Source: Pseudomonadota bacterium (GTDB lineage: Bacteria; Pseudomonadota; Gammaproteobacteria; Burkholderiales; Burkholderiaceae_C). Taken from it: 36,291 bases of DNA. The stretch covers positions 1 through 36,291 of the forward strand of contig JAFECX010000042.1 in assembly GCA_018241895.1 (NCBI GenBank), in the 5' to 3' direction. The position numbers and the translations under genes are program-made. This document shows positions 4,997 through 36,291 of this stretch, in pieces. The stretch's first letter is position 1. Every line of letters begins with the position of its first letter. A model generated the notes under the pieces. That model saw only the letters and a list, made by a program, of their open reading frames with translations, had not been told where the DNA came from and did no database searches.

Positions 4997-5012
4997 CCGT
5001 CCGCACGGACGG
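4997..5012 (-). promoter_or_regulatory. Perfect hairpin in rpsO leader
   Basis: CCGTCC and GGACGG flank a 4-nt loop, giving a perfect 6-bp stem 32 nt before the rpsO start. rpsO mRNAs are often autoregulated by S15 binding to leader structures, but no known S15-binding class is recognised here. Confidence 0.35.
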
Positions 5013-5133
5013 CCGGCGGCGGCGGCGCTCGTGCGAGGGTTTCCGGGCGGACTTGCGGTCACCGGTGAAACCGACCGGCGCCGTGCTGTTCCCCCGGCCT
5101 CTCGGCGTGACCTGCGGCGGCGGGAAGCTGCGG

Positions 5134-5139
5134 ATTATA
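5134..5139 (-). promoter_or_regulatory. Candidate -10 element for rpsO
   Basis: On the minus strand a consensus TATAAT stands about 170 nt before the rpsO start. The last three bases before its final T include the TAA stop codon of tsaD, so the promoter and the upstream gene's stop overlap. No good -35 box is visible 17 nt upstream. Confidence 0.55.
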
Positions 5140-6208: not shown

Positions 6209-6292
6209 CGCCCGCCGGCCGCGGTGCGTGGAGTGCCGCCGGCAGCTGTCGCGCCAGCAGGAGAAACGGCCATGCCGGATTGCCTCGGGGCG

Positions 6293-6616
6293 TCAGACGC
6301 GGAACGACTCGCCGCAGCCGCAGCGGTCCTTCTCGAGCGGGTTGCTGAACCTGAAGCCCTCGTTGAGCCCTTCGCGCACGAAGTCGATCTCGGTGCCTTC
6401 GACGAAGGGCAGGCTCCTGGGATCGACGAGCACCTTGACGCCGCGCTGCTCGAACACGAGGTCGCCGGCAGCCACCTCGTCGGCGAAGTCGAGCTTGTAC
6501 GACAGGCCCGAGCAGCCGGAGGGCTTGACGGCCAGGCGCACACCGATGCCCTTGCCGCGGCGGCCGATGAAGCTGCTGACGTGGCGTGCCGCGTTCTCGG
6601 TGAGGGTGACGCTCAT
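6293..6616 (-). CDS. iscA: Iron-sulfur cluster assembly protein IscA
   Basis: A-type carrier that takes part in [4Fe-4S] cluster delivery. The 107-residue protein has the three conserved cysteines at positions 35, 99 and 101 (SGCSGLSY and RCGCGESF), the same numbering as E. coli Isc[12 protein letters not shown] is also IscA-like rather than ErpA-like. The start at 6616 ([13 protein letters not shown]) is chosen by alignment; the frame is open upstream into non-homologous sequence. It follows iscS after only 49 bp, and there is no room for iscU between them. After iscA the operon ends, and hscB, hscA and fdx are absent. Confidence 0.95.
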
Positions 6617-6665
6617 GATGAACCTCGTGGACTCCGGTGATCGGGTGGGTCTTGCGCGGCGCAAC

Positions 6666-7871
6666 TCACGCCGACAGCGCAGTGTGCCGCGTCGGGCCCG
6701 GCCGCGCCGGGCCATGCGGTGGCGGCGGTGCGCCCGGCACGGCGAGCGCACCCTGCAGCCGCTCGAGCACGGTGTCGATGTCCTGCGCGGTCGTGTGGCG
6801 GCCGATCGACAGGCGCAGGCTCGAGTGCGCGCGCTCGTCGCTGCAGCCGATCGCACGCAGCACGTGGCTGGGCTCGCCGCTCGAGCTGGCGCAGGCGCTG
6901 GCGGTGCTGAGCGCGATGCCCTCGAGTGCGCTCGTCAGACGTTCGGCGTCGACGCCGGCAAAGCTCGCGTTGACGTTGTGCGGCACGCGGCGCTCGAGGT
7001 CGCCATTGATGTCGACCTGCCCGAGCGTCGCCAGGCCGGCGAGCAGGCGGCGCTGCAATGCGCGCACGCGCTCGACTTCGGCGTGCATCTCCTCGCCCGC
7101 GATGCGAAAGGCCTCGCCCATGCCGACGCACTGGTGCGTGGCGAGCGTGCCGCTGCGCAGGCCGCGCTCGTGGCCGCCGCCGTGCATCTGCGGCTCGAGG
7201 CGCACGCGCGGCTTGCGCCGCACGTACAGCGCGCCGATGCCCTTGGGGCCGTAGCTCTTGTGCGCGGTCAGGCTCATCAGGTCGACCGGCAGCGTCGCCA
7301 GATCGATCGCGACCTTGCCGCTGGCCTGCGCCGCGTCGACGTGCAACAGGATGCCGCGCGCGCGGCACAGGGCGCCGATCGCCGCGATGTCCTGCACGAC
7401 GCCGATCTCGTTGTTGACCAGCATCACGGAGACCAGCGTCGTGTCCGCACGCAGCGCGCCGGCCAGGCGCTCCGGATCGAGCAGCCCGCTGGCCGGCACG
7501 TCGAGGGAGGTGACTTCGAAGCCCTGGCGTCCGAGCGCGTGCATCGTGTCGAGCACCGCCTTGTGCTCGGTCTTCACGGTGACGAGGTGACGACCCTGTG
7601 CGCAGCGCGCATGGGCGGCGCCCTTGAGCGCGAGGTTGTCGCTCTCGGTGGCGCCGCTGGTCCAGACGATCTCGCTCGGCTCGGCGCCGACGAGAGCGGC
7701 CACCTGCGCGCGCGCCCTTTGCACGGCGTCCTCGGCCTCGCGGCCCCAGGCATGGCCGCGGCTGGCCGGGTTGCCGAAGTGCTCGCGCAGCCACGGCAGC
7801 ATCGCGTCGACGACGCGCGCGTCGCACGGCGTCGTCGCCGCATGGTCGAGGTAGACGGATCGATGCGGCAT
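6666..7871 (-). CDS. iscS: Cysteine desulfurase IscS with atypical C-terminal tail
   Basis: PLP enzyme that removes sulfur from cysteine for Fe-S clusters, tRNA thiolation and other pathways. Family hallmarks over 401 residues are [11 protein letters not shown] near the N-terminus, [17 protein letters not shown], the PLP lysine Lys205 in [10 protein letters not shown], and the catalytic loop Cys327 in [17 protein letters not shown]. After about residue 375 the sequence departs from the family. In place of the usual LSPLWEM-type ending there is a Pro/Gly/Ala-rich tail ending HTALSA. In E. coli this terminal region contacts IscU. No iscU follows here, so loss of the tail and loss of the partner gene may be linked (inference). 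Confidence 0.94.
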
Positions 7872-7919
7872 CGCGGCCGGGGTCGGTGCGTCAGCGTCGG
7901 CGGCAGGCGGCCACGACGC

Positions 7920-8453
7920 TCACTTGTTGAGCGTCGAGCCGAGCGCGAACACCGAGTTCGGGCCGGTGACCTTGATCGGCTTGACCACCGGCACCGTCGA
8001 GATCGCGCGCTTGACCGGCGCGCCGTCGACCGCCACGCCCTTGGCCAGCTGCTCGTCGACGAGCTTGCGCAACGACACCGAGTCGAGGTATTCGATCATC
8101 TTGGCGTTCAGGCTCGCCCACAGGTCGTGCGTCATGCACTTGCCCGCATCCTGCCCCATGCAGTCTTCCTTGCCGCCGCAACTCGTGGCATCGATCGGCT
8201 CGTCGACGGCGATGATGATGTCGGCCACCGAGACGTCCGACGCGTCGCGGCCCAGCGAGTAGCCGCCACCCGGGCCGCGCGTGCTCTCGACGAGCCCGTG
8301 GCGGCGCAGCTTGCCGAACAGTTGCTCGAGATAGGACAGCGAAATGCGCTGGCGCTGGCTGATCGCCGCCAGCGCCACCGGACCGGTGTGCGAGCGCATC
8401 GCGAGGTCGATCATCGCCGTGACGGCAAAACGGCCCTTGGTCGTGAGTCTCAT
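7920..8453 (-). CDS. iscR: IscR, Rrf2-family [2Fe-2S] transcription regulator
   Basis: 177-residue repressor of isc genes when loaded with a [2Fe-2S] cluster. The start at 8453 gives MRLTTKGRFAVTAMIDLAM, the canonical N-terminus. The winged-helix domain has the YLEQLFGKLRRHGLVESTRG recognition region. The cluster ligands are Cys92, Cys98, Cys106 and His109 (SCGGKEDC and GKCMTHDLW). The gap between the second and third Cys is 7 residues instead of the 5 in E. coli. The C-terminal tail of about 50 residues is longer than in E. coli. It is the first gene of iscR-iscS-iscA and is preceded by two matching IscR boxes, so autoregulation is expected. Confidence 0.96.
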   Translation of the reverse strand: MRLTTKGRFAVTAMIDLAMRSHTGPVALAAISQRQRISLSYLEQLFGKLRRHGLVESTRGPGGGYSLGRDASDVSVADIIIAVDEPIDATSCGGKEDCMGQDAGKCMTHDLWASLNAKMIEYLDSVSLRKLVDEQLAKGVAVDGAPVKRAISTVPVVKPIKVTGPNSVFALGSTLNK

Positions 8454-8585
8454 CGGGTTCTCCCTGGCGCAGCACGCCGGTTGAAGCATCCGCCGGACGG
8501 TTGCCGGCGCGCGCGATGGATCCCGTTGCCGACAACCTACCGGAGCCTGCCCGTGGCGGACCTGACCGCCCGTACGGGCTCAATT

Positions 8586-23953: not shown

Positions 23954-24931
23954 TCAGCGGTCGGGGTGCAGCCGTGCGTCACCCCAGCGCGCGCGAAAGG
24001 CGCGCGCGTCGAGCGGCTCGGCGTTCACGGTGGCCTGCAGCACCTGCAGCAGCCCGCCGTCGGCCGCGGCGATCCACAACGCGCCGTCGCGCGCGTACAG
24101 CGCCAGGCGGGCGTCGGCCGAGCCGGCCTCGCCCCCGGCCCGGGTCGCACCGGGCCCATTGCCCCGCCCCGCGCCATCGCGCACGACGCGCGTGCGCGCG
24201 ATGCCGATGCGCGCGCCGGCGGCGTCGAGGAAGGCGCCCGGATACTCGGGCGGCGCGACCGCGCGCACCAGGTCGTGCAGGCGCCGCGCCGGCCAGCCGG
24301 CGCCCAGCCGCCCGTCCTCGGGCTTGCGGCCGCCGAAATACTGGCCGCCCAGATGCTGCTGCGGCGTCAGGCGAGCCGTGCCGGCGACCAGCCGGGGCAC
24401 GCTGCGCGCCACGACGCGTGCCGCGGCTTCGGTGACGCGGTCGAACACCTGGCGCGCCGTGTCGTCCGCGCCGATCGGCACCGCCTCCTGATCGACGATC
24501 GCGCCATGGTCGGGCTTGACATCCATCACGTGCAGCGTGGCGCCGCTCTCGCGCTCGCCGTTCAGGATCGCCCAGTTCACCGGTGCACGCCCGCGGTAGC
24601 GCGGCAGCAGCGAACCGTGCAGGTTGTAGGCGCCGCGCGGCGCCAGCGCAAGCAGCGCCGCGCCGAGCATGCGGCGGTAGTAGAACGAAAAGAGGAAGTC
24701 CGGCGCGGTCGCGCGGCAGGCGGCGAGCACCTCGTCGGTGTTCGGATCGTCGGGCATGATGCACGCGATGCCGCGCGCGCGCGCCAGTTCGGCGACGCTC
24801 GCGAACCAGATCGTCTCGCCCGGCTGGTCGCGGTGCGTGACGACCAGCGGCACCTCGACGCCCGCGTCCAGCACGGCCTGCAGGCAACGCACGCCGACAT
24901 CGTGGTAGGCGAAGACGAGCGCGCGCGTCAC
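23954..24931 (-). CDS. UDP-L-Ara4N formyltransferase (ArnA N-terminal domain as separate gene)
   Basis: Formylates UDP-L-Ara4N using 10-formyltetrahydrofolate. The 325-residue protein has the catalytic Asn and His in YNLHGSLLPRYRGRAPVNWA, the late Asp in HVMDVKPDHGAIVDQ, and an Fmt-like C-terminal domain (about 205-320). The C-terminal half contains a Gly-rich insertion (DGAGRGNGPGATRAGGEAG) not typical of the E. coli domain. The start MTRALVFAYHDVGVRCL overlaps the arnC stop by 4 bp. Confidence 0.94.
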   Translation of the reverse strand: MTRALVFAYHDVGVRCLQAVLDAGVEVPLVVTHRDQPGETIWFASVAELARARGIACIMPDDPNTDEVLAACRATAPDFLFSFYYRRMLGAALLALAPRGAYNLHGSLLPRYRGRAPVNWAILNGERESGATLHVMDVKPDHGAIVDQEAVPIGADDTARQVFDRVTEAAARVVARSVPRLVAGTARLTPQQHLGGQYFGGRKPEDGRLGAGWPARRLHDLVRAVAPPEYPGAFLDAAGARIGIARTRVVRDGAGRGNGPGATRAGGEAGSADARLALYARDGALWIAAADGGLLQVLQATVNAEPLDARAFRARWGDARLHPDR

Positions 24932-25929
24932 GGCCGTCGCTCCAGCACGGCGCTGATGACGTAGCGCGGCCGCGCGCGCACCTCCTGGTAGATGCGCCCG
25001 ATGTATTCACCGAGCAGCCCGATGCCGAAGAGGGCGAGGCCGATGAGCAGGAAGGCGATCGCGAACAGCGTGAACAGGCCTCCCTCTTCCGGCCCGAACA
25101 CCACGCGTCGGGCCACCAGCAGCACCACCAGCGCCGCTGCGCCCACCGAGACCGCCATGCCGAGCATCGAGAACCACTGCAGCGGCACCACCGAGAAGCC
25201 GGTCACGAGGTCGAAGTTGAGCCGGATCAGGCTGTACAGCGAGTATTTGGATGTGCCCGCCGCGCGCTCCTCGTGGGCGACCTCGATCTCGGTCGGCGTG
25301 CGTGCGAACTGGAAGGCGAGCGCCGGGATGAAGGTGTTCATCTCGCCGCACCGATTGACGAGCTGCACGATGTTGCGGCTGTAGGCACGCATCATGCAGC
25401 CCTGGTCGGTCATGCGGATGCGCGTAATGCGGTGGCGCAGGCGGTTCATCGCCCGACTCGCCCAACGCCGCCATATCGAGTCCTGCCGCATGCGGCGGAT
25501 GGTGCCGACGTAGTCGTGGCCCTGGTCCATCGCCGCCAGCAGCCGCCCGATCTCCTCCGGCGGGTTCTGCAGATCGGCGTCGAGCGTCACCACGCGCTCG
25601 CCGCGGCTGTACTCGAAGCCGGCCAGGATCGCGCGGTGCTGGCCGAAGTTGCCGTTGAAGAGGACGACGCGCGTGACATCGGGCCGCGCCTCGAACTGCG
25701 CGGCCAGGATCTGCGCCGAGCGGTCGACGCTGCCGTCGTTGACGAAGACGATCTCGTAGTCGATGCCCAGCGCGTCGAGCGCCGGATACAGGCGCGCGAA
25801 CAGCAGCGGCAGCGTCGGCTCCTCGTTGTAGACGGGGATCACGACGCTCACGGCGACGGCCCCCGGTCGCGGCGCGTCGGCCACGGTGACGCCGTGGTGC
25901 CGCAGGTCGACGCCGTCGCGCCCCGTCAT
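24928..25929 (-). CDS. arnC: Undecaprenyl-phosphate 4-deoxy-4-formamido-L-arabinose transferase
   Basis: Moves L-Ara4FN from UDP to undecaprenyl phosphate at the inner membrane. The 333-residue protein is a GT2 glycosyltransferase with VSVVIPVYNEEPTLPLL, FVNDGSVDRS, TLDADLQNPPEEI (metal-binding DAD) and the QGCMMRAYSR region. Two C-terminal membrane helices (about 245-270 and 280-305) end in GEYIGRIYQEVRARPRYV. The N-terminus is about 25 residues longer than E. coli ArnC. It overlaps arnB and the formyltransferase gene by 4 bp each. Confidence 0.95.
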   Translation of the reverse strand: MTGRDGVDLRHHGVTVADAPRPGAVAVSVVIPVYNEEPTLPLLFARLYPALDALGIDYEIVFVNDGSVDRSAQILAAQFEARPDVTRVVLFNGNFGQHRAILAGFEYSRGERVVTLDADLQNPPEEIGRLLAAMDQGHDYVGTIRRMRQDSIWRRWASRAMNRLRHRITRIRMTDQGCMMRAYSRNIVQLVNRCGEMNTFIPALAFQFARTPTEIEVAHEERAAGTSKYSLYSLIRLNFDLVTGFSVVPLQWFSMLGMAVSVGAAALVVLLVARRVVFGPEEGGLFTLFAIAFLLIGLALFGIGLLGEYIGRIYQEVRARPRYVISAVLERRP

Positions 25930-27056
25930 GCGCCACCTCGGCGCAGCACGCGCTCGAGGGCGGCGCAGACGCGGTCGACGTCGGCATCGGCCATCGCCGG
26001 AAAGAGCGGCAGCGTCACCGTGCGCCGGCCGATGTCCTCGGCGTGCGGGAACTGGCCTTCGCGGTGGCCGCGCGCGCGATACAGCGTGAACAGGTGCAGC
26101 GCCGGGTAGTGCACGCCGACGCCGATGCCCTCGGCGCGCATCGCCTCGATGAAGCGGCCCCGGTCGCTGCCGGCCGGCAGCAGCGGCTGGAACATGTGCC
26201 AGTTGCTCTGTTCGAAGTCCGCCACGGGCAGCTCGAAGCCGAGCGCGCGCGGAAAACGCTCGAAGTAGCGGCGCGCGAGCTGGTGGCGCCGCGCGTTGAA
26301 CGCGTCCAGGTGGCGCAACTGCCCGAGGCCCACCGCCGCCGCCACGTCGGTGAGGTTGCTCTTGCCGCCGAGCACGTCGACGTCCATGCCGCCGTCGGCA
26401 TGCCGCGTCACGCCCTGCAGGCGCAGCTTCTCGAAGCGCCGCGCCTCGGCCTCGTCGTTCATGACCAGGCATCCGCCCTCGATGCTCGTCATGTTCTTGT
26501 TCGGATGGAAGCTGAACGAGACGAGGTCGCCGAAGCTGCCGATCTCGCGAGCGCGCCAGCGCGCCCCCATCGACTGCGCCGCGTCCTCGATCACGCGCAG
26601 CCCGTGGCGCGCTGCCAGCGCATGGAGGCGGTCGCGGTCGACGGGCAGCCCCGCGAGGTCCACCGGCAGCAGCGCGCGCGTGCGCGGCGTGACGGCCGCC
26701 GCGGCCTGCTCGAGATCGATGTTGCGCGTCGCCGCATCGACGTCGACGAACACCGGCGTCGCGCCGACCTCGAGGACGACGTTGGCCGTGGCCACCCACG
26801 ACAGCGGCGTCGTGATGACCTCGTCGCCGGCTCCGATGCCGGCCACGCGCAGCGCGATCCCGAGTGCGGCCGTGGCCGAGCTGGCGAGCCGCACCGGGCG
26901 CCCGCCGTAACGCGCCGACAGCGCCGCCTCCAGTTCGCTGCAGCGCGGCCCGGTCGTGATCCAGCCCGAGCGCAGCACGTCGGCGACGGCAGCGATCGTC
27001 TCCTCGTCGATCGAAGGCCGCGTGAAGGGAAGAAAGGGCGAAAGGGGTGCGTTCAT
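25926..27056 (-). CDS. arnB: UDP-4-amino-4-deoxy-L-arabinose aminotransferase
   Basis: PLP enzyme converting UDP-4-keto-pentose to UDP-L-Ara4N with glutamate. The 376-residue protein is of the DegT/DnrJ/EryC1 family. It has FLPFTRPSIDEETIAAV at the N-terminus, the ITTPLSWVATANVVL loop, EDAAQSMGARW, and the PLP lysine Lys187 in SFHPNKNMTSIEGGCLV. The start is placed at 27056 by family alignment and the one-base overlap with the upstream flippase stop; the frame is open further upstream into an unrelated reading of that gene. Confidence 0.95.
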   Translation of the reverse strand: MNAPLSPFLPFTRPSIDEETIAAVADVLRSGWITTGPRCSELEAALSARYGGRPVRLASSATAALGIALRVAGIGAGDEVITTPLSWVATANVVLEVGATPVFVDVDAATRNIDLEQAAAAVTPRTRALLPVDLAGLPVDRDRLHALAARHGLRVIEDAAQSMGARWRAREIGSFGDLVSFSFHPNKNMTSIEGGCLVMNDEAEARRFEKLRLQGVTRHADGGMDVDVLGGKSNLTDVAAAVGLGQLRHLDAFNARRHQLARRYFERFPRALGFELPVADFEQSNWHMFQPLLPAGSDRGRFIEAMRAEGIGVGVHYPALHLFTLYRARGHREGQFPHAEDIGRRTVTLPLFPAMADADVDRVCAALERVLRRGGA

Positions 27057-27433
27057 CAGGCCTGTCCCGAGCGTGCCACCAGCGTCACGCCGACCAGGAT
27101 GATGCCGATGCCCAGCCAGCGCTGCGCGCTCACCGCCTCGCCGAACAGCCACATCGCCAGCAGCGCGTTGACGACATAGCCCACCGACAGCAGCGGATAC
27201 GCGATGCTCACATCGACGCGCGACAGCGCCACGATCCACACCACCACCGACACCGCATAGCAGACCAGCCCGCCGAGCACGCCCGGGTGCAGCGCCAGCG
27301 TCGGCAGCGCGCCGCGCAGCGATGCCCAGCCGCCGATCGGGCCGACCGCCGCCGCGCCGCTCTTGAGCAGCAGTTGCGCCACGGCATTGAGCAAGACGCC
27401 CGCAAGGACGATGACGAGGTCGGAGGTTTTCAT
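27056..27433 (-). CDS. Small multidrug-resistance-like flippase subunit of the arn operon (ArnE/ArnF-like)
   Basis: 125-residue membrane protein with four hydrophobic helices, MKTSDLVIVLAGVLLNAVAQ at the N-terminus and the family motif DVSIAYPLLSVGYVVNALLA in the third helix. In E. coli, ArnE and ArnF together flip undecaprenyl-phosphate-L-Ara4N to the periplasm. Here only one such gene is present, so it may work as a homodimer (inference). It overlaps arnT by 4 bp and arnB by 1 bp. Confidence 0.88.
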   Translation of the reverse strand: MKTSDLVIVLAGVLLNAVAQLLLKSGAAAVGPIGGWASLRGALPTLALHPGVLGGLVCYAVSVVVWIVALSRVDVSIAYPLLSVGYVVNALLAMWLFGEAVSAQRWLGIGIILVGVTLVARSGQA

Positions 27434-29073
27434 GGCTTGACGATGACGATGCGCCGCGGATCGGTGAACACGACCCGGCCATCGACGCCGCGCCGGCGCA
27501 GCTCGGCCAGCGTGTCGCGGGAAAGGTAGGCGGCGGCGCGCGGCATCTGCCGCCAGCGTTCGACGAAACCCTCGAGCGTCGGGATCCAGCGCGCCGGCTC
27601 GAGACGCTCGCCGAGATCGAACTCGTCCACTATAGCCACCAGCGTGACGTCGCGACGCAGGTAGAACGGCAGCGTCTGGTCGTACTCGCCGACGGCGAAC
27701 ACCGGCGTGTCCGGGGGCACGAGGCGCGCGAGCGCGTCGCTGCTCTTGAGCTGTCCGAAGGGGTCGTGCGCCGCGAGTGCCACGAACAGCGCCAGCAGAT
27801 GCGCGACGGCCATCGCCGCCACCGCGCCGGCACGCGCGCCACGGCGCAGCGCCAGCGCCGCCACCAGCGCGCCGACGAGGAACACCAGCGCTGCCGCGCC
27901 CAGCCCGCGCGCCAGCGGCTCGATGACCGCAGCGGGCGTCTGCGCGCTGGTCCAGCGGGCGGCGAACGGCGTCGCCGCCAGCAGCGCCAGCCAGGCCAGC
28001 GCGGCGACGGCGAGCCAGCGTGCCAGCCGGCGCGCGCCGGCGGCCTGCAGCCGCGGCGCCAGCAGCAGCACCAACGGCGGGAACATCGGCAGGATGTACG
28101 AGGGCAGCTTCGAACTCGAGGCGCTGAAGAACACGAACACAAAGCCGGCCCAGGCGAGCATCAGCCGCTCGGCGCGGTCGCGCGGTCGCAGCAGCGCAGG
28201 CAGCGCCGCGGTCCACGGCAGGAAGCCGACCAGCAGCACCGGCACGAACGACCACCAGGCACCCTCGCGCCGGTGCACCGGCGTCAGGAAGCGCTCGACG
28301 TGCTCGTGGACGAAGAAAAAGCGCGCGAACGCGGGCTCGCGCCACGACACGACGACGAACCAGGGCGCCGCCACCAGCAGCAGGACCGCCAGCCCGCGGC
28401 GCCACTCGAGCCCGCGCCAGAAGCCGCAGTCGCGCTCCCACGCCGCGCGCAGCAGCAGCGCCGCGGCGGGGATGACGATGCCGATCAGGCCCTTGCTCAG
28501 CACGGCCAGCGCCACTCCCAGCCAGGCCAGCAGCATCCAGCGCCGCCGCGAGCGCACCTGGCCCGCCTGCTCGGCCAGCAGCAGCGCGCACAGCGCGAGC
28601 GTGAGCGCTGCGGTGAGCCCGGCGTCGAGCGACAGGAACTGGCTGTTGACGACGATCCAGGTCGTCGAGCCGCCCGCCGCGAGCGCGTGCCAGCCCGTCT
28701 CGCGCCCGCGCAGCCGCGCCGCCGTGAAGGCCAGGCATGCCACGCAGAAGAGCCCGCTCAGCCCGGGCCACAGGCGCGCCGCGAACTCGTCGACGCCGAA
28801 CAGGGCCATCGCCGCCGCGCCGGCCCAGTACTGCAGCGGCGGCTTCTCGAAGTACAGCAGGCCGTTCAGGCGCGGCACGATCCAGTCGCCGCTTTGCAGC
28901 ATGCCCAGCGACAGCGTCGCGTAGCGTCCCTCGTCGGGGCCGGCGAGCGAACGCGCGCCGAGCATCGCAAGCCACAGGCAGGCCAGCAGCGCGAGCGCCG
29001 CGCCACGCGCGAGCGTGAGCGGGCCGAACAGGGAGGTCCGGGCGTTTCGACCGGCTGGCGAGTCAGCCTGCAT
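27430..29073 (-). CDS. arnT: Lipid A L-Ara4N transferase
   Basis: Periplasmic-side GT-C/GT83 glycosyltransferase that attaches L-Ara4N to lipid A phosphates and confers resistance to polymyxin and cationic peptides. The 547-residue protein has about 12 hydrophobic segments and a C-terminal soluble domain. First-loop catalytic acids are in GPDEGRYATLSLGML, followed by LYFEKPPLQYW. It also has SKGLIGIVIPAA and SSSKLPSYILPMFPPL, both typical of ArnT. It is the first gene of the arn operon; the promoter must lie in the 130-bp gap shared with egtD. No PmrA or PhoP box is recognised there. Confidence 0.94.
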   Translation of the reverse strand: MQADSPAGRNARTSLFGPLTLARGAALALLACLWLAMLGARSLAGPDEGRYATLSLGMLQSGDWIVPRLNGLLYFEKPPLQYWAGAAAMALFGVDEFAARLWPGLSGLFCVACLAFTAARLRGRETGWHALAAGGSTTWIVVNSQFLSLDAGLTAALTLALCALLLAEQAGQVRSRRRWMLLAWLGVALAVLSKGLIGIVIPAAALLLRAAWERDCGFWRGLEWRRGLAVLLLVAAPWFVVVSWREPAFARFFFVHEHVERFLTPVHRREGAWWSFVPVLLVGFLPWTAALPALLRPRDRAERLMLAWAGFVFVFFSASSSKLPSYILPMFPPLVLLLAPRLQAAGARRLARWLAVAALAWLALLAATPFAARWTSAQTPAAVIEPLARGLGAAALVFLVGALVAALALRRGARAGAVAAMAVAHLLALFVALAAHDPFGQLKSSDALARLVPPDTPVFAVGEYDQTLPFYLRRDVTLVAIVDEFDLGERLEPARWIPTLEGFVERWRQMPRAAAYLSRDTLAELRRRGVDGRVVFTDPRRIVIVKP

Positions 29074-29168
29074 GGATGCGAGCGCGGGCAGTGCGAGGCG
29101 GCCATGCTACACAGAGACCCGGTCGCATCCGAGGACACCCCGGTCGACGCGGGCCGCGCCGCGCCCTA

Positions 29169-29199
29169 CAGTGGCTGGCGCAGCACTCGTCAGCCACTG
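29169..29199 (+). promoter_or_regulatory. Perfect 9-bp inverted repeat just before egtD
   Basis: CAGTGGCTG (29169-29177) and CAGCCACTG (29191-29199) are perfect complements with a 13-nt spacer and end 4 nt before the egtD ATG. Half-site centres are 22 bp apart, about two helical turns, and the left arm overlaps a TACAGT -10-like element. It may act as a DNA operator, or as an RNA hairpin hiding the ribosome-binding region, where no Shine-Dalgarno is visible. Confidence 0.6.
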
Positions 29200-29203
29200 C
29201 CCG

Positions 29204-30172
29204 ATGAACTCGCCCCGCCTGCTGCAACTGCACCATGATGCCGACGACGCCGCCGAGGCCGCGGCCGGTCTGCTGCGCCCGCACGCCGCGCTTGCACCCA
29301 AGTTCTTCTACGACGCGCAGGGCTCGGCACTGTTCGACGCCATCACCCGCCTGGACGAGTACTACCCGACGCGCACCGAGGCCGCCATCCTCGCCGAACA
29401 CGGCACGGCGATCGCCGACGCGGTGCGCGGGCACACCGGGCCGGCGCCGGTCATCGTCGACCTGGGTGCCGGCAACTGTGCCAAGGGGGCGGCGCTGTGT
29501 GCGCTGCTGGCACCGCAGCGCTACGTCGCCGTCGACATCTGTGCCGAGCATCTGGCCGGCGCACTCGCGCCGCTGCAGCGCGAGCACCCGGCACTCGAGC
29601 TGGTCGGCGTGGGGCTGGACTTCTCGCGCCGGCTCGAACTGCCCGCCGGACTGGCCGGCACCCGGGCGCTCGTCTTCTACGCCGGCTCCAGCATCGGCAA
29701 CTTCGATCCCGTCGCGGCGCTCGAGCTGCTGCGCCAGGCGCGCGCGCTGGCCGGCAGCGGCGCCTTGCTGATCGGGGTCGACCTCGTGAAGGCAAGCGAC
29801 GTCCTCGAGGCCGCGTACGACGACGCGCTGGGGGTGACGGCGGCCTTCAACCTCAACGTGCTGCGGCATCTGAACACCCTGCTGGGTGCGGACTTCGATC
29901 TGCGCCAGTGGCGGCACGTGGCGCACTACGAGCGCGCCGCCTCGCGCATCGAGATGCACCTCGAAGCGCGCGCGGCCTGCCTCGTGCGCTGGCGCGGCGG
30001 CCAGCGCGCCTTCGCCGCCGGCGAGCGCATCCACACCGAGAATTCCTACAAGTGGACGCGCGACGCCTTTGCCGCGCTGCTGCGCGAGGCCGGCTTTGGC
30101 GAGCCGCGCCACTGGAGCGATGCGCGCGGCTGGTTCGCACTCTTCGTGGCCGGCGGCCGAGGCCGGGCTTGA
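29204..30172 (+). CDS. egtD: L-histidine N-alpha-methyltransferase (hercynine synthesis)
   Basis: SAM-dependent enzyme that trimethylates histidine to hercynine, the precursor of ergothioneine and selenoneine. The 322-residue protein belongs to the EgtD/DUF2260-type family. It has PKFFYDAQGSALFDAITRLDEYY, split here at GSALFD, then YPTRTEAAIL, the SAM loop IVDLGAGNCAKG and FYAGSSIGNFDP. Near the C-terminus are FNLNVLRHLN and ENSYKWTRDAF. The start at 29204 is fixed by the conserved LLQLHHD region. The next gene, senB, is 64 bp downstream. An egtB-type gene for ergothioneine is not in the window; the only EgtB-like gene is senA. Confidence 0.95.
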   Translation: MNSPRLLQLHHDADDAAEAAAGLLRPHAALAPKFFYDAQGSALFDAITRLDEYYPTRTEAAILAEHGTAIADAVRGHTGPAPVIVDLGAGNCAKGAALCALLAPQRYVAVDICAEHLAGALAPLQREHPALELVGVGLDFSRRLELPAGLAGTRALVFYAGSSIGNFDPVAALELLRQARALAGSGALLIGVDLVKASDVLEAAYDDALGVTAAFNLNVLRHLNTLLGADFDLRQWRHVAHYERAASRIEMHLEARAACLVRWRGGQRAFAAGERIHTENSYKWTRDAFAALLREAGFGEPRHWSDARGWFALFVAGGRGRA

Positions 30173-30236
30173 CTCGGGAGCGGCTGCCGCCGACTCCCCC
30201 ACGCAGCGTGAGCGAGCACCGCGCGAGGCCCGCCGC

Positions 30237-31217
30237 GTGAGCCGTCTTTCCCTGGCCATCGTGACACCGGCGCTGGCGGCGGCCAACAACGGCAACTGGC
30301 ACACGGCCCGGCGCTGGGCGCGCATGCTCGGCAGCAGGTATCGCGTGCGCCTCGCCGACGCCTGGGACGACGGCGACGAGGCCGGCATGATCGCCCTGCA
30401 CGCGCGGCGCTCGGCGGCTTCGATTGCCGCCTGGCACGCGAGGCACCCCGGGCGGCCGCTGGTTGTCGTGCTCACCGGCACCGACCTGTACCGCGACATC
30501 GACTTCGACGCCGCGGCGCAGCGCTCGCTCATGCTCGCCGACGCGCTGGTGGTGCTCAACGAACTGGGCGCGCACCGTCTGCCCGCGGCGCTGCGCGCCA
30601 AGGCGCAGGTGGTGCTGCAGTCGAGCCCGGCGCGCGCTGCGCTGGCGCGCACGGCGCATCATCTGCGCGCGCTGATGGTCGGGCACCTGCGCGACGAGAA
30701 GGACCCGCGCACCTACTGGCGCGCGGCCGAGCGGCTGGCGGCGCGGCGCGACATCCGGCTCGACCACATCGGCAGCGCGCTCGAGCCCGCCCTCGGCGCA
30801 CAGGCGACGGCGCTGGCCGCAGGCCGGCCGCAGTTCCGCTGGCTCGGCGGGCGGCCGCACGACGAGGTGCGCCGCCGCGTCCAGCGCGCACACGTGCTGG
30901 TGAACGCGAGCCGCATGGAAGGCGGCGCGCAGGTCGTCATCGAGGCCATCCGCAGCGGCACGCCGGTGCTGGCCTCGCGCATCGACGGCCACCTGGGGCT
31001 GCTCGGCGACGACTACGAAGGCCTGTTCGCGCCCAGCGACGACGCGGCCCTGGCCGCCCTGCTCGCACGTGCGCGCGACGATCGCGATATGCTGCCGCGC
31101 CTTGCTGCCACCCTGGCCGCGCGATCGCCGCGCTTCGCACCCCAGGCCGAGCGCGCCGCGCTGCTGGCCCTGGTCGGCAGGCTGCTGGCACGCGCACCCG
31201 ACGCATCAACGCCATGA
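30237..31217 (+). CDS. senB: Selenosugar synthase SenB (GT-B glycosyltransferase)
   Basis: 326-residue glycosyltransferase matching the TIGR04348-type family since identified as SenB, which uses selenophosphate and a UDP-sugar to form a selenosugar. Features are RLSLAIVTPALAAANNGNWHTA at the N-terminus (in two parts: LAIVTPALA and NNGNWHTARRWA), VLTGTDLYRDIDFD, VVLNELGA, VGHLRDEKDP, and the C-terminal nucleotide-sugar site VNASRMEGGAQVVIEAIRSG. The start is GTG at 30237; no ATG fits. Its stop overlaps the senC ATG (ATGA). Both neighbours are genes of the same pathway, which makes the assignment strong. Confidence 0.92.
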   Translation: MSRLSLAIVTPALAAANNGNWHTARRWARMLGSRYRVRLADAWDDGDEAGMIALHARRSAASIAAWHARHPGRPLVVVLTGTDLYRDIDFDAAAQRSLMLADALVVLNELGAHRLPAALRAKAQVVLQSSPARAALARTAHHLRALMVGHLRDEKDPRTYWRAAERLAARRDIRLDHIGSALEPALGAQATALAAGRPQFRWLGGRPHDEVRRRVQRAHVLVNASRMEGGAQVVIEAIRSGTPVLASRIDGHLGLLGDDYEGLFAPSDDAALAALLARARDDRDMLPRLAATLAARSPRFAPQAERAALLALVGRLLARAPDASTP

Positions 31218-32332
31218 ACACCGTTCCTTCGTCTGCCGCGGCTCCTGCGTCCACCGCGTCTGTCGCGTCGCTCGCCGCCGGCGCCGGCGCCGAACCCCGC
31301 CTCACGTCGCTGTCGCACGGCGGCGGCTGCGGCTGCAAGATCGCCCCCGGCGTGCTGTCCGAGGTGCTGCGCAGCACCGTGTCGCTGCCGGTGCCCAGGG
31401 AACTGCTGGTCGGCATCGAGACCGCCGACGACGCCGCCGTCTACCAGCTCAACGACGAGCAGGCGCTGATCGCGACCACCGACTTCTTCATGCCCATCGT
31501 CGACGACCCTGCCGACTTCGGCCGCATCGCCGCCACCAACGCGCTGAGCGACGTCTACGCGATGGGCGGGCGCCCGATCCTGGCGCTGGCCCTGGTGGGC
31601 ATGCCGATCTCGGTGCTGTCGACCGCGACCATCGCGCGCGTGCTCGAAGGCGGCGCCTCGGTGTGCCGCAGCGCCGGCATCCCGATCGCCGGCGGCCACA
31701 GCATCGATTCGGTCGAGGCCATCTACGGCCTGGTCGCGCTCGGCCTCGTGCATCCCAAGCAGGTCCGGCGCAACGCCGACGCCCGGCCCGGCGACCTGCT
31801 GGTGCTGGGCAAGCCGCTGGGCGTGGGCGTGATGAGCGCGGCGCTCAAGAAGGATCTGCTCGGCGCCGACGGCTACGCGCAGATGATCGCCACCACGACG
31901 CGGCTGAACACGCCCGGCCCCGACCTCGCGGCGCTGGCCGGCGTGCACGCGCTCACCGACGTCACCGGCTTCGGCCTCGCCGGGCACGCGCTCGAGATGG
32001 CGCGCGGCGCGCGCTGCACGATCGAACTGCAGTGGCCGTGCGTGCCGCTGCTGCCGGGCGTGCGCGAACTGGCCGCACGCGGAATCGTCACCGGCGCCTC
32101 GGGCCGCAACTGGGCGGCCTACGGCGGCGAGGTCGAACTGCCGGCGGACTTCGCCGCCGCCGAGCGCGCGCTGCTCACCGATCCGCAGACCAGCGGCGGG
32201 CTGCTCGTGTCGTGCGCGCCGGCCGCGCTGGACGCGGTGCGCGCGGTGTTCGCGCGCCACGGCTTCGACGCGGCGGCGGTCGTCGGCCGGGTGCTTGCAC
32301 GCAGCGGCGCGGCGCTGCACGTCATCGGCTGA
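31214..32332 (+). CDS. senC: Selenophosphate synthase (SelD homologue, SenC)
   Basis: Makes selenophosphate from selenide and ATP. The 372-residue protein has about 25 extra N-terminal residues, then LSHGGGCGCKIAPGVL with Cys39, Cys41 and Lys42, matching the active-site Cys17/Lys20 of E. coli SelD. The nucleophile is Cys, not selenocysteine. GIETADDAAVYQLND, TTDFFMPIVDDPADFGRIAA (ATP/Mg ligands), GGHSIDSVEAIYGL and DVTGFGLAGHALEMA are all typical. Translational coupling to senB shows dedication to selenoneine. It could also feed selenoprotein or seleno-tRNA synthesis, but no selA, selB or selU is in the window. Confidence 0.95.
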   Translation: MNTVPSSAAAPASTASVASLAAGAGAEPRLTSLSHGGGCGCKIAPGVLSEVLRSTVSLPVPRELLVGIETADDAAVYQLNDEQALIATTDFFMPIVDDPADFGRIAATNALSDVYAMGGRPILALALVGMPISVLSTATIARVLEGGASVCRSAGIPIAGGHSIDSVEAIYGLVALGLVHPKQVRRNADARPGDLLVLGKPLGVGVMSAALKKDLLGADGYAQMIATTTRLNTPGPDLAALAGVHALTDVTGFGLAGHALEMARGARCTIELQWPCVPLLPGVRELAARGIVTGASGRNWAAYGGEVELPADFAAAERALLTDPQTSGGLLVSCAPAALDAVRAVFARHGFDAAAVVGRVLARSGAALHVIG

Positions 32333-32350
32333 AGCCGCCTGCGATGGCCT

Positions 32351-32368
32351 GCGATTGCTCGCAATCGC
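32351..32368 (+). promoter_or_regulatory. Perfect hairpin after senC
   Basis: GCGATTG-CTCG-CAATCGC forms a 7-bp stem with a 4-nt loop 19 nt after the senC stop. No T-run follows, so it is more likely an RNA-stabilising or weak-termination element than a classical terminator. Next to it is a small direct repeat (gcactcggccgcattcggcc). Confidence 0.4.
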
Positions 32369-32444
32369 CCGCACTCGGCCGCATTCGGCCGCACTCGCCA
32401 GGGAGCGTGAACGGTCGCCGCGTCTTCGAAGGAGTCAGCGAACG

Positions 32445-32669
32445 ATGATGGAACCTGCAGCCCGCACGCCTCGCGACAGCGCGGCCAGCCGCGCCGACAT
32501 CTCGAACCGCCACTGCGGCAGCAACGGCTTTCGACGCAACCTGCGCCGCTGCGACATGCGCAAGAGCGCGGGCGCGGCGGGCGCGCCGCCGGACTCCCGC
32601 CTCGCCCCGGGCGGGATCGTGCGCCTGCCCGACGCCTGCCGGCCCAAGGCCTGCGGCCACGACTCATGA
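32445..32669 (+). CDS. Unknown 74-residue Cys/Arg-rich small protein
   Basis: I do not recognise the family. The ORF starts at a tandem ATGATG preceded by a good GAAGGAG about 10 nt upstream. It stops with TGA overlapping the ATG of the acyl-CoA dehydrogenase gene (ATGA). About 90% of its codons end in G or C, much higher than its first and second positions, which is the pattern of a real gene in this genome. The product has four cysteines (RHCGS, RRCD, DACR, KACG), many arginines, no membrane helix and no signal peptide. It could be a small regulator, a metal-binding protein, or a leader ORF coupling translation of the next gene. Confidence 0.55.
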   Translation: MMEPAARTPRDSAASRADISNRHCGSNGFRRNLRRCDMRKSAGAAGAPPDSRLAPGGIVRLPDACRPKACGHDS

Positions 32670-33877
32670 GCGCGTTCGACCGCGAGTTCACGGCCATCGA
32701 CGCCGCCACGGCCGCACGGCTGGATTACGGCGACGAGTACCGCGCGTTGCGCACCGCGGTGCGGCGCTGGGCGCGCGAGCGCATCGCGCCCGAGCTCGAT
32801 GCCTGGGAGGCGGCGGGCCGCCTGCCGCGCAGCTTCTTCACCGACGCCGGCGCGCTGGGCATGCTGGGCTTTGCGGTGCCCGAGCGCTACGGTGGGCCGG
32901 GGCTGCGCGACTACCGCTGCCACGCCATCGTGGTCGAGGAGATCGCGCGCATCGGCGCCGCCTCCTGCGCGGTGGCGGTGTCGCTGCAGAACGACGTCGT
33001 GCTGCCCTACCTCACCGACCTGGCGAGCGACGAGCAGCAGGCGCGCTGGCTGCCCGGCGTCGCCAGCGGAGAGCGGGTCCTTGCCATCGCCATGACCGAG
33101 CCCGGCGCCGGCAGCGATCTGGCCGGCATCCGCACGCGCGCGCGCCGCGAGGGCGACCACTACGTGATCGACGGCGCCAAGACCTTCGTCTCGAACGGCC
33201 AGAACGCGGACCTTTTCGTCGTCGCCGCGCGCACCGCGGCGGCCGACGAGGCTGGCGCTGCCGACCGGCGCGGCGGCCTGACGCTGTTCGTCGTCGACGG
33301 CCGCACGCCGGGCCTCGTGCGCGGGCGCAACCTGGCCAAGCTGGGCTTGCATGCCCAGGACACGAGCGAGCTGCAGTTCGACGCCATGCGCGTGCCGGCG
33401 GCCGACCGCCTGGGCGCCGAAGGCGAAGGCTTCGGCCAGCTCGTGCACCACCTGCCGCAGGAGCGGCTGTCGCTGGCCGCCGGTGCGGTGGCCGCCGCCG
33501 AAGGGGTGCTCGTCTACACGCTCGAGTACGTGCGCGGGCGCACCGCGTTCGGCCAGCCGCTCGCGAAGTTCCAGAACACGCGCTTCGTGCTGGCCGAGCT
33601 GGCCACCGGGCTCGACCTCGCGCGCACCTACCTCAACGACTGCATCGCCGAGCACCTGCGCTCGGCGCTCACCCCGGCGCGTGCGGCGCGGCTCAAGTGG
33701 TGGACGACCGAGCTGCAGACGAAGGTCGCCGACCGCTGCCTGCAGCTGCACGGCGGCTACGGCTACATGCGCGAATACCGCGTCTCGCGCGCCTTCGCCG
33801 ATGCGCGCATCCAGACGATCTACGGCGGCACCACCGAGATCATGAAGACCATCGTCGCGAAGGATCTGGATCTGTAG
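32666..33877 (+). CDS. Acyl-CoA dehydrogenase
   Basis: 403-residue FAD enzyme that introduces the alpha-beta double bond in an acyl-CoA and passes electrons to ETF. It has the two family signatures, AMTEPGAGSDLAGIRT near residue 140 and QLHGGYGYMREYRVSRAFAD near 360. The FAD/substrate segment GAKTFVSNGQNADLF and the end IYGGTTEIMKTIVAKDL, whose Glu is at the catalytic-base position, are also present. Chain-length preference cannot be told. It sits between senC and senA on the same strand, translationally coupled to the small ORF. No link to selenium metabolism is known for this family. Confidence 0.95.
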   Translation: MSAFDREFTAIDAATAARLDYGDEYRALRTAVRRWARERIAPELDAWEAAGRLPRSFFTDAGALGMLGFAVPERYGGPGLRDYRCHAIVVEEIARIGAASCAVAVSLQNDVVLPYLTDLASDEQQARWLPGVASGERVLAIAMTEPGAGSDLAGIRTRARREGDHYVIDGAKTFVSNGQNADLFVVAARTAAADEAGAADRRGGLTLFVVDGRTPGLVRGRNLAKLGLHAQDTSELQFDAMRVPAADRLGAEGEGFGQLVHHLPQERLSLAAGAVAAAEGVLVYTLEYVRGRTAFGQPLAKFQNTRFVLAELATGLDLARTYLNDCIAEHLRSALTPARAARLKWWTTELQTKVADRCLQLHGGYGYMREYRVSRAFADARIQTIYGGTTEIMKTIVAKDLDL

Positions 33878-34445
33878 GTCATCCGGCAACCCGGCACGCT
33901 GCAAGTCATTGCGCGCGTCGCGGCATGACCGAGGAGGCGCCGGCGGGCGACGCCTGCGCAGCGGCCAACCACGCCGCCCGCCTCGCCCCACCGGCGCCGC
34001 GCGATGCCGGGAATTGCGCCGATGCTTCGTGCCCGCGGGCGCCAGCGCTGCGGCCGCGTGGCCGGCACGGCAGGGCACGACCGGGGGCACGACCGGGCAC
34101 GACGCGCCTCGGGCCTGCGGCAGGGCATCGATGCGCGCCGCCATGCGTTGGCGCATGGGCCAGGTGCTGCAGGAATTGCCGGCGCTCGTTCTTACCAGGC
34201 GGCGCTCGCGCAGCCTCCTGGGCCTCGCGGGCATGCCCGCGAGGGGAGCGAGCGCCTTCACAACGGCCGTGCATCGCTCGTAGCCTGGCCTCGTGCCGCG
34301 CGCGGCCTCGCGCGGCTCGTGCAATCGTGCGACGATGCGGCAAGAGGCACGGCGCCACGCTGTCCGCTGCATTCGCGGTGGAGCGCGCGCAACGTATCGC
34401 GTGGCGCCGCATGCGCGCTGCGAGCCGGACCGCAGACGCAAGAAA
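33878..34445. other. 568-bp gap without a convincing gene, upstream of senA
   Basis: ORFs exist on both strands but show no codon-position bias and no recognisable protein. The gap holds a triple repeat of gggcacgaccgg-like sequence (about 34073-34103) and a perfect 20-bp palindrome CTCGCGGGCATGCCCGCGAG at 34224-34243. The senA promoter should lie here; no strong -10/-35 pair is visible. Confidence 0.6.
34224..34243. repeat. Perfect 20-bp palindrome
   Basis: CTCGCGGGCATGCCCGCGAG is its own reverse complement, in the noncoding region 202 bp before senA. It may be an operator, a hairpin, or a remnant of a repeat element. Confidence 0.8.
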
Positions 34446-35843
34446 ATGAACGCAATCGACGACAAGCACCACACATTGCCCGCAGCGCAACTGGCGACCA
34501 TGGTGCAGGAGGCGCACGAGCGCACGCTCGAATGCGTGGCCGACCTGCACGACGCGCAGCTCGAGGTGCCGTTGCTCGAGATCGTCAACCCGTTGCGCTG
34601 GGAGCTCGGGCATTGCGCGTTCTTCTACGATGCGTTCGTGCTGCGTCCGCGGCGCGGACGCCCGGCTGTCATGGCGCACGCCGGCGACCTGTACGACTCG
34701 TTCGGCGTCGACCACGACGAGCGCTGGCATCTCGATCTGCCCGAGCGGCGCGCAACGCTCGACTACATGGCGCGCGTGAAGGACGCCGTGCTCGAGGATC
34801 TGGCGCGCGGCACCGAGGGGCCCGAGCAGACCTACCTGCACCTGCTCGCGCTCATCCACTCCGACATGCACTGCGAGGCATTCACGTACATGCGGCAGAC
34901 GCTGGGCTATGCGGCGCCGGCCTTCGTCGGGCGCCATGCAGCGGCATCAAGCGCGCACGCAGGGCCACTGGCCGGGGACGTGGCGTTCGCGGGCGGACGC
35001 TTCCTGCTCGGCACCAGCCCCGACGCGCCCTTCGTGTTCGACAACGAGAAGTGGGCGCACCCGGTCGAGCTGGCGCCCTTCAGGATCGCACGTGCACCCG
35101 TGACGCAGTCCGAGTTCGCGGCCTTCGTCGACGCTGGCGGCTATCTCGCGCGCGCGCTCTGGAGCCGTCAGGGCTGGGGCTGGCGCACGCGCACCGGCCT
35201 GCAGCATCCGCCGTACTGGCAGCGTGCCGGCGGTGGCTGGCTGCGGCGCGATTTCGACCGCATGGTGGCGCTCGAGCCGCATGCGCCGATGGTGCACGTC
35301 AGCTGGTACGAGGCCGAGGCCTGGTGCCGCTGGGCCGGCAGACGGCTGCCGACCGAAGCCGAATGGGAGCTTGCGGCCAGTGCGGCGGGCGCAGATGCCG
35401 ACGTCGCTGCCGGCAGCGACGTGCCGACTCTCGCGGCCAAGCGCCGCTACCCCTGGGGGCAAGGCGAGCCCGACGACACGCGCGCCAACCTGGACGCGGG
35501 CGCCGCCGGCTGCGTCGACGTCGCCGCGTTTGCCGCCAGCGACAGCGCCGCGGGTTGCCGCCAGATGATCGGCAACGTCTGGGAGTGGACCGCGAGCCCC
35601 TTCTATCCCTACCCCGGATTCGTCGTCGACCACCCGTACAAGGAGTACTCGGCGCCTTGGTTCGGCTACCGCAAGGTGCTCCGAGGCGGCTCGTGGGCGA
35701 CGCGCCCGCGCTTTGCGCACAACGCACTGCGCAACTTCTTTCCTCCACACCGCAACGACGTCTACGCCGGGTTTCGCACCTGCGCGCTCGCGCAGCCACC
35801 TCACAGCGCGCCCGCGCAGCCACCTCACAGCGCGCCCGCGTAG
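34446..35843 (+). CDS. senA: Selenoneine synthase SenA (EgtB-like)
   Basis: 465-residue nonheme-iron enzyme of the EgtB/SenA family that joins the selenosugar from SenB to hercynine. The N-terminal DinB-like domain carries the likely iron triad His56 (WELGHCAFFYD), His138 and His142 (ALIHSDMHCEAF). The C-terminal formylglycine-generating-like domain (about 175-450) has GGRFLLGT, PVTQSEFAAFVDAGGY, HVSWYEAEAWCRWAGRRLP, GNVWEWTASPFYPYPGF, YKVLRGGSWATRP and FFPPHRNDVYAGFRTC. Choosing SenA over ergothioneine synthase EgtB rests mainly on senB and senC in the same cluster. The C-terminus ends in two copies of the QPPHSAPA repeat. Confidence 0.88.
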   Translation: MNAIDDKHHTLPAAQLATMVQEAHERTLECVADLHDAQLEVPLLEIVNPLRWELGHCAFFYDAFVLRPRRGRPAVMAHAGDLYDSFGVDHDERWHLDLPERRATLDYMARVKDAVLEDLARGTEGPEQTYLHLLALIHSDMHCEAFTYMRQTLGYAAPAFVGRHAAASSAHAGPLAGDVAFAGGRFLLGTSPDAPFVFDNEKWAHPVELAPFRIARAPVTQSEFAAFVDAGGYLARALWSRQGWGWRTRTGLQHPPYWQRAGGGWLRRDFDRMVALEPHAPMVHVSWYEAEAWCRWAGRRLPTEAEWELAASAAGADADVAAGSDVPTLAAKRRYPWGQGEPDDTRANLDAGAAGCVDVAAFAASDSAAGCRQMIGNVWEWTASPFYPYPGFVVDHPYKEYSAPWFGYRKVLRGGSWATRPRFAHNALRNFFPPHRNDVYAGFRTCALAQPPHSAPAQPPHSAPA

Positions 35844-35864
35844 CCACCTCACCGCGCACCCGTG
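35793..35864 (+). repeat. Three 24-bp tandem repeats across the senA stop
   Basis: Unit cagccacctcacagcgcgcc plus cgcg; two copies are coding (QPPHSAPA) and the third starts at 35841. In the third copy the initial CAG is TAG, which is the senA stop codon. Confidence 0.9.
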
Positions 35865-35985
35865 CAGCCGCTGGGCAAGACGGGTTCGGTGCGGCCCCAG
35901 GCGCGCGCGTCGCCGCCACCGGGTGCGCGACGTTCGCGGCGCCGGCATGCATCGGCGCCGCAATGCATCGGCGCCCAAACGCATT

Positions 35986-36007
35986 GCGGCACCCCCGAGG
36001 GTGCCGC
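35986..36007 (+). terminator. 9-bp hairpin downstream of senA, possible terminator
   Basis: GCGGCACCC-CCGA-GGGTGCCGC forms a perfect 9-bp stem with a 4-nt loop about 140 nt after the senA stop. No T-run follows. The rest of 35844-36131 has short direct repeats (atgcatcggcgcc twice, 35947-35975) and no gene. Confidence 0.45.
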
Positions 36008-36131
36008 CATCACTTGCAAACGCTGGCGGAGTGGACGATGGGCCAACCTGTGTCCCATGCCCCTTCATGTCGTCTCGGATAGCAGCATTGTCGCAGTCAA
36101 CAACGTTATTGATCCGGCAAGATGAAGTTTT

Positions 36132-36291
36132 CACGCCGCGTACTTGACGATCGGGTCTTGGAAGTAGGCCCGAACGCGATCGCGGTTGGCGGCGATGAAT
36201 TGCATGTGCTCGTCGGCAGCGGCGCGCAGCTTGGCCTTCGTGCGCACCGGCACCTTTGTGCCGATGGCCTGCTTCAAGTCGGCGTTGAGCC
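36132..36291 (-). CDS. IS630-family transposase, C-terminal part (5' end outside window)
   Basis: The visible 52 codons end at TGA (36132-36134). They contain VPVRTKAKLRAAADEHM and YFQDPIVKYAA, the characteristic C-terminus of IS630-type DDE transposases. The N-terminal part with the catalytic residues is beyond the window, so activity cannot be judged. The DNA just downstream of the stop, from about 36060, is clearly more AT-rich than the neighbouring genes, consistent with the terminal sequence of an insertion element; the exact end and TA target duplication are not determined. Confidence 0.82.

Follow-up and report, generated by a model that had tools for sequence, protein, structure and literature searches.

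How did a bacterium with a complete set of predicted genes for synthesis of selenoneine, a selenium antioxidant, come by the enzyme for the last step of that pathway? This question is raised by a stretch of 36,291 nucleotides (hereafter the window; positions 1 to 36,291 of contig JAFECX010000042.1, assembly GCA_018241895.1) from a member of the Burkholderiaceae_C within the Burkholderiales. A preliminary description had seen a selenoneine cluster in this DNA, with egtD, senB and senC in a row and senA displaced by 2.1 kb. Our analysis indicates that the locus probably combines EgtD, SenB and the only selenide, water dikinase (SelD) found in the genome, namely SenC, with a SenA of another lineage, which was likely imported and replaced the native senA. 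The source genome (G000; 3.98 Mb in 249 contigs) is listed as 100% complete with a contamination of 0.01. For comparison we used 120 genomes, 72 of them from the genus of the window (its own included). Gene identity was judged by the curated NCBIfam cut-offs, given in bits, and a genome without a listed match was counted as being without that gene. Loci with close SenB homologs on named contigs include those of Roseateles, Pelomonas, Rubrivivax rivuli and Piscinibacter, and judging from the names attached to its SenB and SenA relatives, we call the source bacterium a putative member of the Rubrivivax group.

All four genes lie on the forward strand where the preliminary description had placed them, and each exceeds the cut-off of its NCBIfam profile, which bears out the families assigned there. 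The first gene, egtD (29204-30172), encodes a predicted L-histidine N-alpha-methyltransferase that would supply hercynine (TIGR03438, 344 bits; cut-off 291). A junction of 64 bp (30173-30236) separates it from senB (30237-31217), for which GTG at 30237 is the most likely start. SenB, the predicted selenosugar synthase, reaches 420 bits against TIGR04348 (cut-off 300), the profile by which the preliminary description had proposed to check it. This match is the only one above cut-off in the source genome, and none was found in 14 control genomes; the locus thus exceeds chance by the SenB profile. The best matches of the window SenB in the PDB are the solved SenB structures, with 327-335 bits. 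Aligned with PDB 8k5u, it keeps N20, T23, K158 and E231 from the residue list in PMC10891094, and the SenB motif EGGAHV reads EGGAQV (H to Q) and agrees in five of six positions. senC (31214-32332) encodes a SelD-type selenide, water dikinase as judged by TIGR00476 (418 bits; cut-off 125) and PRK00943 (526 bits; cut-off 299). Its translation contains HGGGCGCK, matching the SelD motif GCGCK, which we take to be characteristic of selenophosphate synthetases. The letters ATGA at 31214-31217 are common to the senB stop and the senC start, and the 4-bp overlap described earlier is therefore present. senA (34446-35843), the predicted selenoneine synthase, reaches 494 bits against NF041186 (cut-off 420) and follows senC after 2,113 bp that contain an acyl-CoA dehydrogenase gene, which goes unmentioned in the preliminary description.

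With the pathway of Variovorax paradoxus as a model (PMC9814287 and PMC10891094), the steps can be predicted as follows. EgtD would trimethylate histidine to hercynine, SenC would make selenophosphate, and SenB would transfer the selenium of selenophosphate onto a UDP-sugar. The last step would fall to SenA, predicted to be an iron enzyme with three histidine ligands, which would couple the selenosugar to hercynine; release of the sugar would then yield selenoneine. Judged by families, the predicted route that starts from histidine and selenide is complete, as had been proposed, and selenoneine is the likely product of the locus. The pathway and all of its enzyme families are already known; the variant layout with a SenA of another lineage appears to be new. 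Among the listings of openly licensed papers that were searched, we found none that describes such a layout, the replacement of a SenA, or a senC serving as the sole shared SelD.

We then asked what kind of enzyme the window SenA is. Its residues H56, H138, H142, Y398, Y401, N430, F431 and F432 are the same in the corresponding columns of V. paradoxus SenA (PDB 8k5i). Presumably these residues represent the iron-binding histidine triad, a catalytic-type tyrosine and a SenA-type pocket (Y, Y, N, F, F). Across an alignment of the window protein with 44 of 120 listed homologs, H138, H142, Y398, Y401 and N430 are invariant, while H56, F431 and F432 are nearly so. By profile and residues, the window protein is thus a predicted member of the SenA family, of a clade separate from V. 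paradoxus SenA. An AlphaFold model of it was poor, with a mean predicted local distance difference test score (pLDDT) of 63 and much of the C-terminal part below 50. The 3' end of senA contains a repeat in three copies with a spacing of 24 nt (35782-35869), the last copy extending beyond the stop codon; the repeat appends a short repeated tail (QPPHSAPA) behind the conserved domain.

To place this SenA among its relatives, we collected 123 SenA-like matches in the fetched loci and kept 103 proteins for trees; 19 were dropped by script because they were cut, short or contained an internal stop, among them those of G104 and G117. For a tree of 127 rows, the 75 distinct proteins, apart from a few that were omitted, were combined with reference sequences and some of the 120 listed homologs, and 67 rows were drawn from it for a more careful tree. 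The 67-row tree contains one clade of 39 rows (support 100/99) that unites the SenA proteins of the genus with V. paradoxus SenA and two SenA proteins from other bacterial families, and the window SenA lies outside this clade. Instead, it groups with proteins named Rubrivivax (P0001) and Ideonella (P0030) and with the SenA of another genus member, G050. The other named members of its wider clade in the tree come from Tectomicrobia, Acidobacteria, Verrucomicrobia, Binatia and one betaproteobacterium. A tree of SenB and SenC combined puts the window inside the genus, beside locus L147 (metagenome-assembled genome REEB370), with a Shimodaira-Hasegawa approximate likelihood ratio test (SH-aLRT) support of 100; L147 is also the nearest of 43 other rows in this comparison. 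Over long matches, the window proteins are 60-81% (SenB) and 75-87% (SenC) identical to the copies of the genus, and only about 34-42% in the case of SenA.

The layout of the relatives gives a second view of the same difference. Of 53 senB loci in the genus, 41 have senA immediately adjacent to senB and in divergent orientation. The window, G050 and G013 account for three of the remaining 12; the other nine loci represent second copies, cuts by contig ends or cases where no senA was found. By blastn, positions 1-5045 of L147 match 25151-30147 of the window, and 6379-8495 match 30231-32338, collinearly and with 85-86% DNA identity; the two egtD genes are 84% identical. Between these blocks, L147 holds 1.33 kb (5046-6378) with a divergent native-type senA between egtD and senB. 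This DNA is without counterpart in the window, where egtD, senB and senC are consecutive and the 64-bp junction takes its place. The ancestral order would accordingly have been egtD forward, senA reverse, senB forward and senC forward, and loss of the native senA would have left egtD-senB-senC as one likely operon. G050 offers a parallel: the native senA is absent from its egtD-senB-senC locus, and a senA of the window clade, 66% identical to that of the window, lies on another contig. G060, the partner of G050 in the SenB+SenC tree (SH-aLRT 97), has retained the usual layout, and on this gene tree the native senA appears to have been lost separately at least twice. In G013, the native senA is likewise gone from its usual place, and a senA of the native clade lies on another contig. 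The inclusion of egtD had been regarded as unusual in the preliminary description. When 25 loci of the genus were anchored on SenA and viewed with ~1.5 kb of flanking DNA, 12 held egtD, but only 1 of 10 on named contigs in the same check did so. Rarity of egtD inclusion in the genus is thereby rejected.

What, then, lies around the senA of the window? Collinearity with L147 stops at 32338, directly after senC, and the stretch behind it (32339-36291) is non-collinear with the compared relatives and likely acquired. It has no match of more than 200 bp with any of eight relatives; as these share no downstream DNA among themselves either, the breakpoint alone is weak evidence of import. The acyl-CoA dehydrogenase gene (32666-33877, forward strand) was recognized by its Pfam acyl-CoA dehydrogenase domains and reached no NCBIfam cut-off. 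Among its 120 listed matches, 48 carry an organism name, and by hand count all of these are actinomycetes; the two closest matches outside those 48 are 77% identical. We considered it as a gene of the pathway and rejected this, as the compared loci contain only a 45% homolog beside the senA of G016 and a 28% homolog near an OvsA-type gene of G074. The gene is probably a passenger outside the pathway. At the end of the contig lies the C-terminal end of an IS630-family transposase gene (36131-36291, reverse strand), cut by the contig end. This fragment of 52 residues shares 69% identity with an Acidovorax temperans IS630 transposase and 65% with transposases of the IS1471 type; Pfam gave no significant domain in it. 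From the actinomycete-type gene and the IS630 end, we infer an acquired patch carrying senA. A SenA from a clade that spans phyla would have entered downstream of senC with foreign DNA beside an IS630 element, and the loss of the native gene may have come before or after this gain. A foreign SenA could fit in because SenB would pass on a free small molecule.

Several observations weigh against this interpretation, and we discuss them together with the alternatives to which they lend support. On the supporting side, forcing the window SenA and a 98% identical twin into the 39-row clade cost 101 log-likelihood units in an approximately unbiased (AU) test, the p-value of which (p-AU 2.7e-5) is flattering since the clades were named after the tree had been seen. 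The separate clade, this test and the comparison with L147 led us to reject that senA merely moved. Of the displacement by 2.1 kb in the preliminary description, the distance stands, whereas the native senA is missing from its usual place and the senA present comes from another clade. The senA of the window differs only slightly from its neighbors in GC content at third codon positions (GC3; 0.87 versus 0.90-0.95), and is thus close to its host in composition. The presence of the Ideonella and Rubrivivax proteins in the same small clade as the SenA of the window and G050 points to a longer presence of this clade in the group, and the loss of collinearity after senC, common to all compared relatives, says little about import. 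These three points would fit a history in which two SenA clades have long coexisted in the group and differential loss left the source genome with the second and without the first, with no recent import. We regard such a history as unlikely, because among the genus SenA proteins in the trees only those of G000 and G050 belong to the window clade, and because an actinomycete-type gene and an IS630 end adjoin senA. The 249 contigs of the assembly also make a chimeric join after senC conceivable, by which a native egtD-senB-senC would have been wrongly connected to foreign DNA with the acyl-CoA dehydrogenase gene and senA; collinearity with L147 ends right behind the senC stop, and the contig ends in an insertion sequence. 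Yet the sequence runs without a break from egtD to senB, where the native senA is missing, the source genome yielded no other complete SenA, its contamination is 0.01, and G050 has the same combination of genes. The 98% identical SenA record carries the name Rubrivivax sp. and argues in the same direction, though it possibly stems from the same or a near genome. We therefore consider an assembly artifact very improbable.

Other observations concern the reaction that the window SenA may catalyze. Its best matches in the PDB are chains of the selenoxide synthase OvsA with 289-299 bits, compared with 240 bits for V. paradoxus SenA. OvsA belongs to the EgtB family as well, and we assume for it a role in ovoselenol synthesis. 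The window clade adjoins OvsA in the 67-row tree (99/97) and in an extended tree with two rows added (SH-aLRT 85). Moreover, a natural OvsA-type protein from G074 (L194, G074:C6:41494-42771) passes NF041186 with 427 versus 420 bits. This profile accordingly labels some predicted OvsA enzymes SenA, and since its cut-off alone cannot exclude OvsA, we compared the residues instead. At the columns of Y401, N430, F431 and F432, where the window protein agrees with V. paradoxus SenA, OvsA 8u41 and the G074 protein have M, Q, A and Y, and on these active-site columns we reject OvsA identity. The OvsA chain 8ux5 carries Y, N and F at three of these four discriminating columns; our guess is that it represents an engineered variant. 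SenA-type residues and a closer match to OvsA can be reconciled, because the trees put the window clade beside OvsA. In addition, egtD adjoins senB, as a hercynine route needs. Hence, it seems highly unlikely that the window encodes an OvsA-like selenoxide synthase making ovoselenol or another C5-selenated histidine. For EgtB, and a cell making ergothioneine, one could cite the shared family, a score of 318 bits against the EgtB profile TIGR03440 and the naming of close homologs as EgtB in some source records. One could also cite the SenA-family gene of G104 (L176, G104:C4), added to the extended tree later. Its product is 58% identical to the window SenA, scores 484 bits, falls within the window clade (98) and shares the YKEYS and RNFF residues with the window SenA, and in this genome (92% complete) no SenB, SelD, SelA or SelU was found, which weighs against a selenium role of the clade as a whole. 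Either the genome is incomplete, or such enzymes can work without selenium. The genomic context of the window SenA clade was examined in G000, G050 and G104, of which the first two have both SenB and SenC. We nevertheless give the EgtB alternative hardly any credence. The score stays under the cut-off of 360, senB and senC adjoin, and the window SenA falls outside the EgtB group in the 127-row tree, the placement that the preliminary description had named as a check. Mycobacterial EgtB has W and D where the window SenA has its two F. From the two Arg and one Asp that we assume to bind gamma-glutamyl-cysteine in EgtB, one Arg is replaced by His and the Asp by Phe, while the other Arg is retained. 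On profile cut-offs and active-site columns, we reject EgtB identity. No ergothioneine route was seen in the source genome, as judged from a genome search for FGE domains and with no search using the EgtB profile itself; the FGE search returned two proteins, neither of which reaches the EgtB cut-off. The second one (contig C33, L162, 4989-6170, reverse strand) scores 243 bits for SenA and 109 bits for EgtB, both under cut-off. It is a diverged SenA-family paralog without one iron histidine, both tyrosines and the pocket asparagine, and groups with copies in G021 and G061.

With an imported SenA as our preferred interpretation, we turned to the role of SenC. In the source genome, senC is the only SelD match above cut-off, with two weak matches (59 and 42 bits) below it. 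The genome also has selA, selU, selB and a tRNA-Sec (67.9 bits); two further matches of the tRNA-Sec search just above threshold are tRNA-Ser. Because the only SelD above cut-off occurs in a genome with these genes, SenC is likely a general selenophosphate supply that also feeds selenocysteine and selenouridine synthesis. Within the genus, senB is present in 50 of the 72 genomes, and in 44 of them senC lies directly after senB as the only SelD; 16 of those 44 also have selA and selU. Furthermore, a SelD with 78-82% identity occurs at five loci of genus members that lack senB. As senC is the sole SelD in many genomes of the genus and has close counterparts in members without senB, it is, by this distribution, not a dedicated selenoneine copy. 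This qualifies the earlier proposal that the gene overlap ties selenophosphate supply to selenosugar synthesis: the overlap exists, but the only SelD above cut-off would also serve selenocysteine and selenouridine. If this is true, SenC is the likely housekeeping selenophosphate synthetase of the genus, and a senC deletion would be expected to affect every selenium trait together, a point of importance to anyone interpreting senC mutants as selenoneine-specific. SelD genes with one in-frame TGA, which likely encode a selenocysteine-containing SelD, were seen at G076:C28, G117:C20 and G083:C2.

The selenocysteine branch of the source genome showed a peculiarity of its own. On contig C162 (L222), selB (5861-7759) is followed by the tRNA-Sec gene (7806-7902), and a formate dehydrogenase gene (2424-5282, reverse strand) lies divergent to them. 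We examined 20 selB stretches, which were chosen by hand and not at random. In the source genome and in 10 more of these stretches, the tRNA-Sec next to selB carries GCA, a cysteine anticodon; in eight the anticodon is UCA, and one stretch showed none. In 10 of the 11 loci with GCA, TGC occupies the selenocysteine position of a formate dehydrogenase gene, and a hairpin with a GGUGU loop follows; no selenocysteine site was found in the eleventh (G004, on a short contig). Over the 14 codons from the TGC site in eight full-length genes, one codon is kept in 10 of 13 columns with an invariant residue, compared with 196 of 583 elsewhere in the gene, and the corresponding GC3 values are 0.73 and 0.91; however, 32 of 770 codon windows reach the first measure and 21 of 770 the GC3 value, and similar figures (6 of 9; GC3 0.72) come from the 14 codons immediately before the site. 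Reading of a cysteine codon as selenocysteine is known in Aeromonas salmonicida, according to PMC10778597. Taken together, our data suggest a likely natural use of a cysteine codon for selenocysteine in the source genome and the picked relatives. ARAGORN found no tRNA within the window, nor on the stretches with selA and selU.

Comparison with known systems places the locus more closely. The sen cluster of Variovorax paradoxus DSM 30034 has the same three enzyme families, and the two SenA proteins agree in the active-site columns. In contrast to that cluster, the window SenA belongs to another clade, its gene lies 2.1 kb downstream in the same orientation with an unrelated gene in between, and senB comes directly after egtD. 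OvsA (PDB 8u41, 8ux5) is the nearest solved neighbor of the window SenA, which differs from 8u41 at the discriminating columns and stands in a locus with egtD. On the Methylorubrum populi plasmid pMPOP01 (L247), which carries insertion sequences, a SenA 54% identical over 84% of that of the window is encoded beside senB. There, however, senA is divergent and looks cut short, as its listed gene stops at an IS6 transposase and lacks the C-terminal active-site motif; it falls outside the clade of the window, and no egtD or selD was found in the stretch fetched. Loci of G030, G036 and G016 (L182, L183 and L184) resemble the window in that egtD adjoins selD on one strand, but have an EgtB-type enzyme in place of senA and senB, in an egtB-egtD-selD arrangement without senB at that place. 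G016 additionally has senA and senB on another contig. In these loci, it looks as if the egtD-selD neighborhood were older than the sen genes. Besides, the Hydrogenophaga plasmid pBPS33-1 (L248) carries senB and a divergent EgtB-family gene within a region for arsenic, chromate and copper resistance. Upstream of the locus in the window (23954-29073, reverse strand), four genes resemble a lipid A aminoarabinose set, of which the formyltransferase lies above its cut-off and the other three below theirs; this region is collinear with L147 from 25151 onward.

A broader idea, which we put forward tentatively and on which we are about evenly divided, leaning slightly against, is that SenA acts as a plug-in module. 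egtD and selD would form a fixed hub in the genus, into which native SenA, EgtB or a foreign SenA adjacent to OvsA may be exchanged, with at least two exchanges (G000 and G050). In the resulting chimeric pathways, the SenB of one lineage would feed the SenA of another, and a single cluster SelD would supply selenoneine, selenouridine and selenocysteine. If the replacement proposed here is true, the last step of selenoneine synthesis would be exchangeable between lineages while the first steps stay. The selenosugar would then be a freely passed intermediate, and pairs of SenA and SenB need not co-evolve. The locus would thereby represent a natural chimera for testing what separates SenA, OvsA and EgtB.

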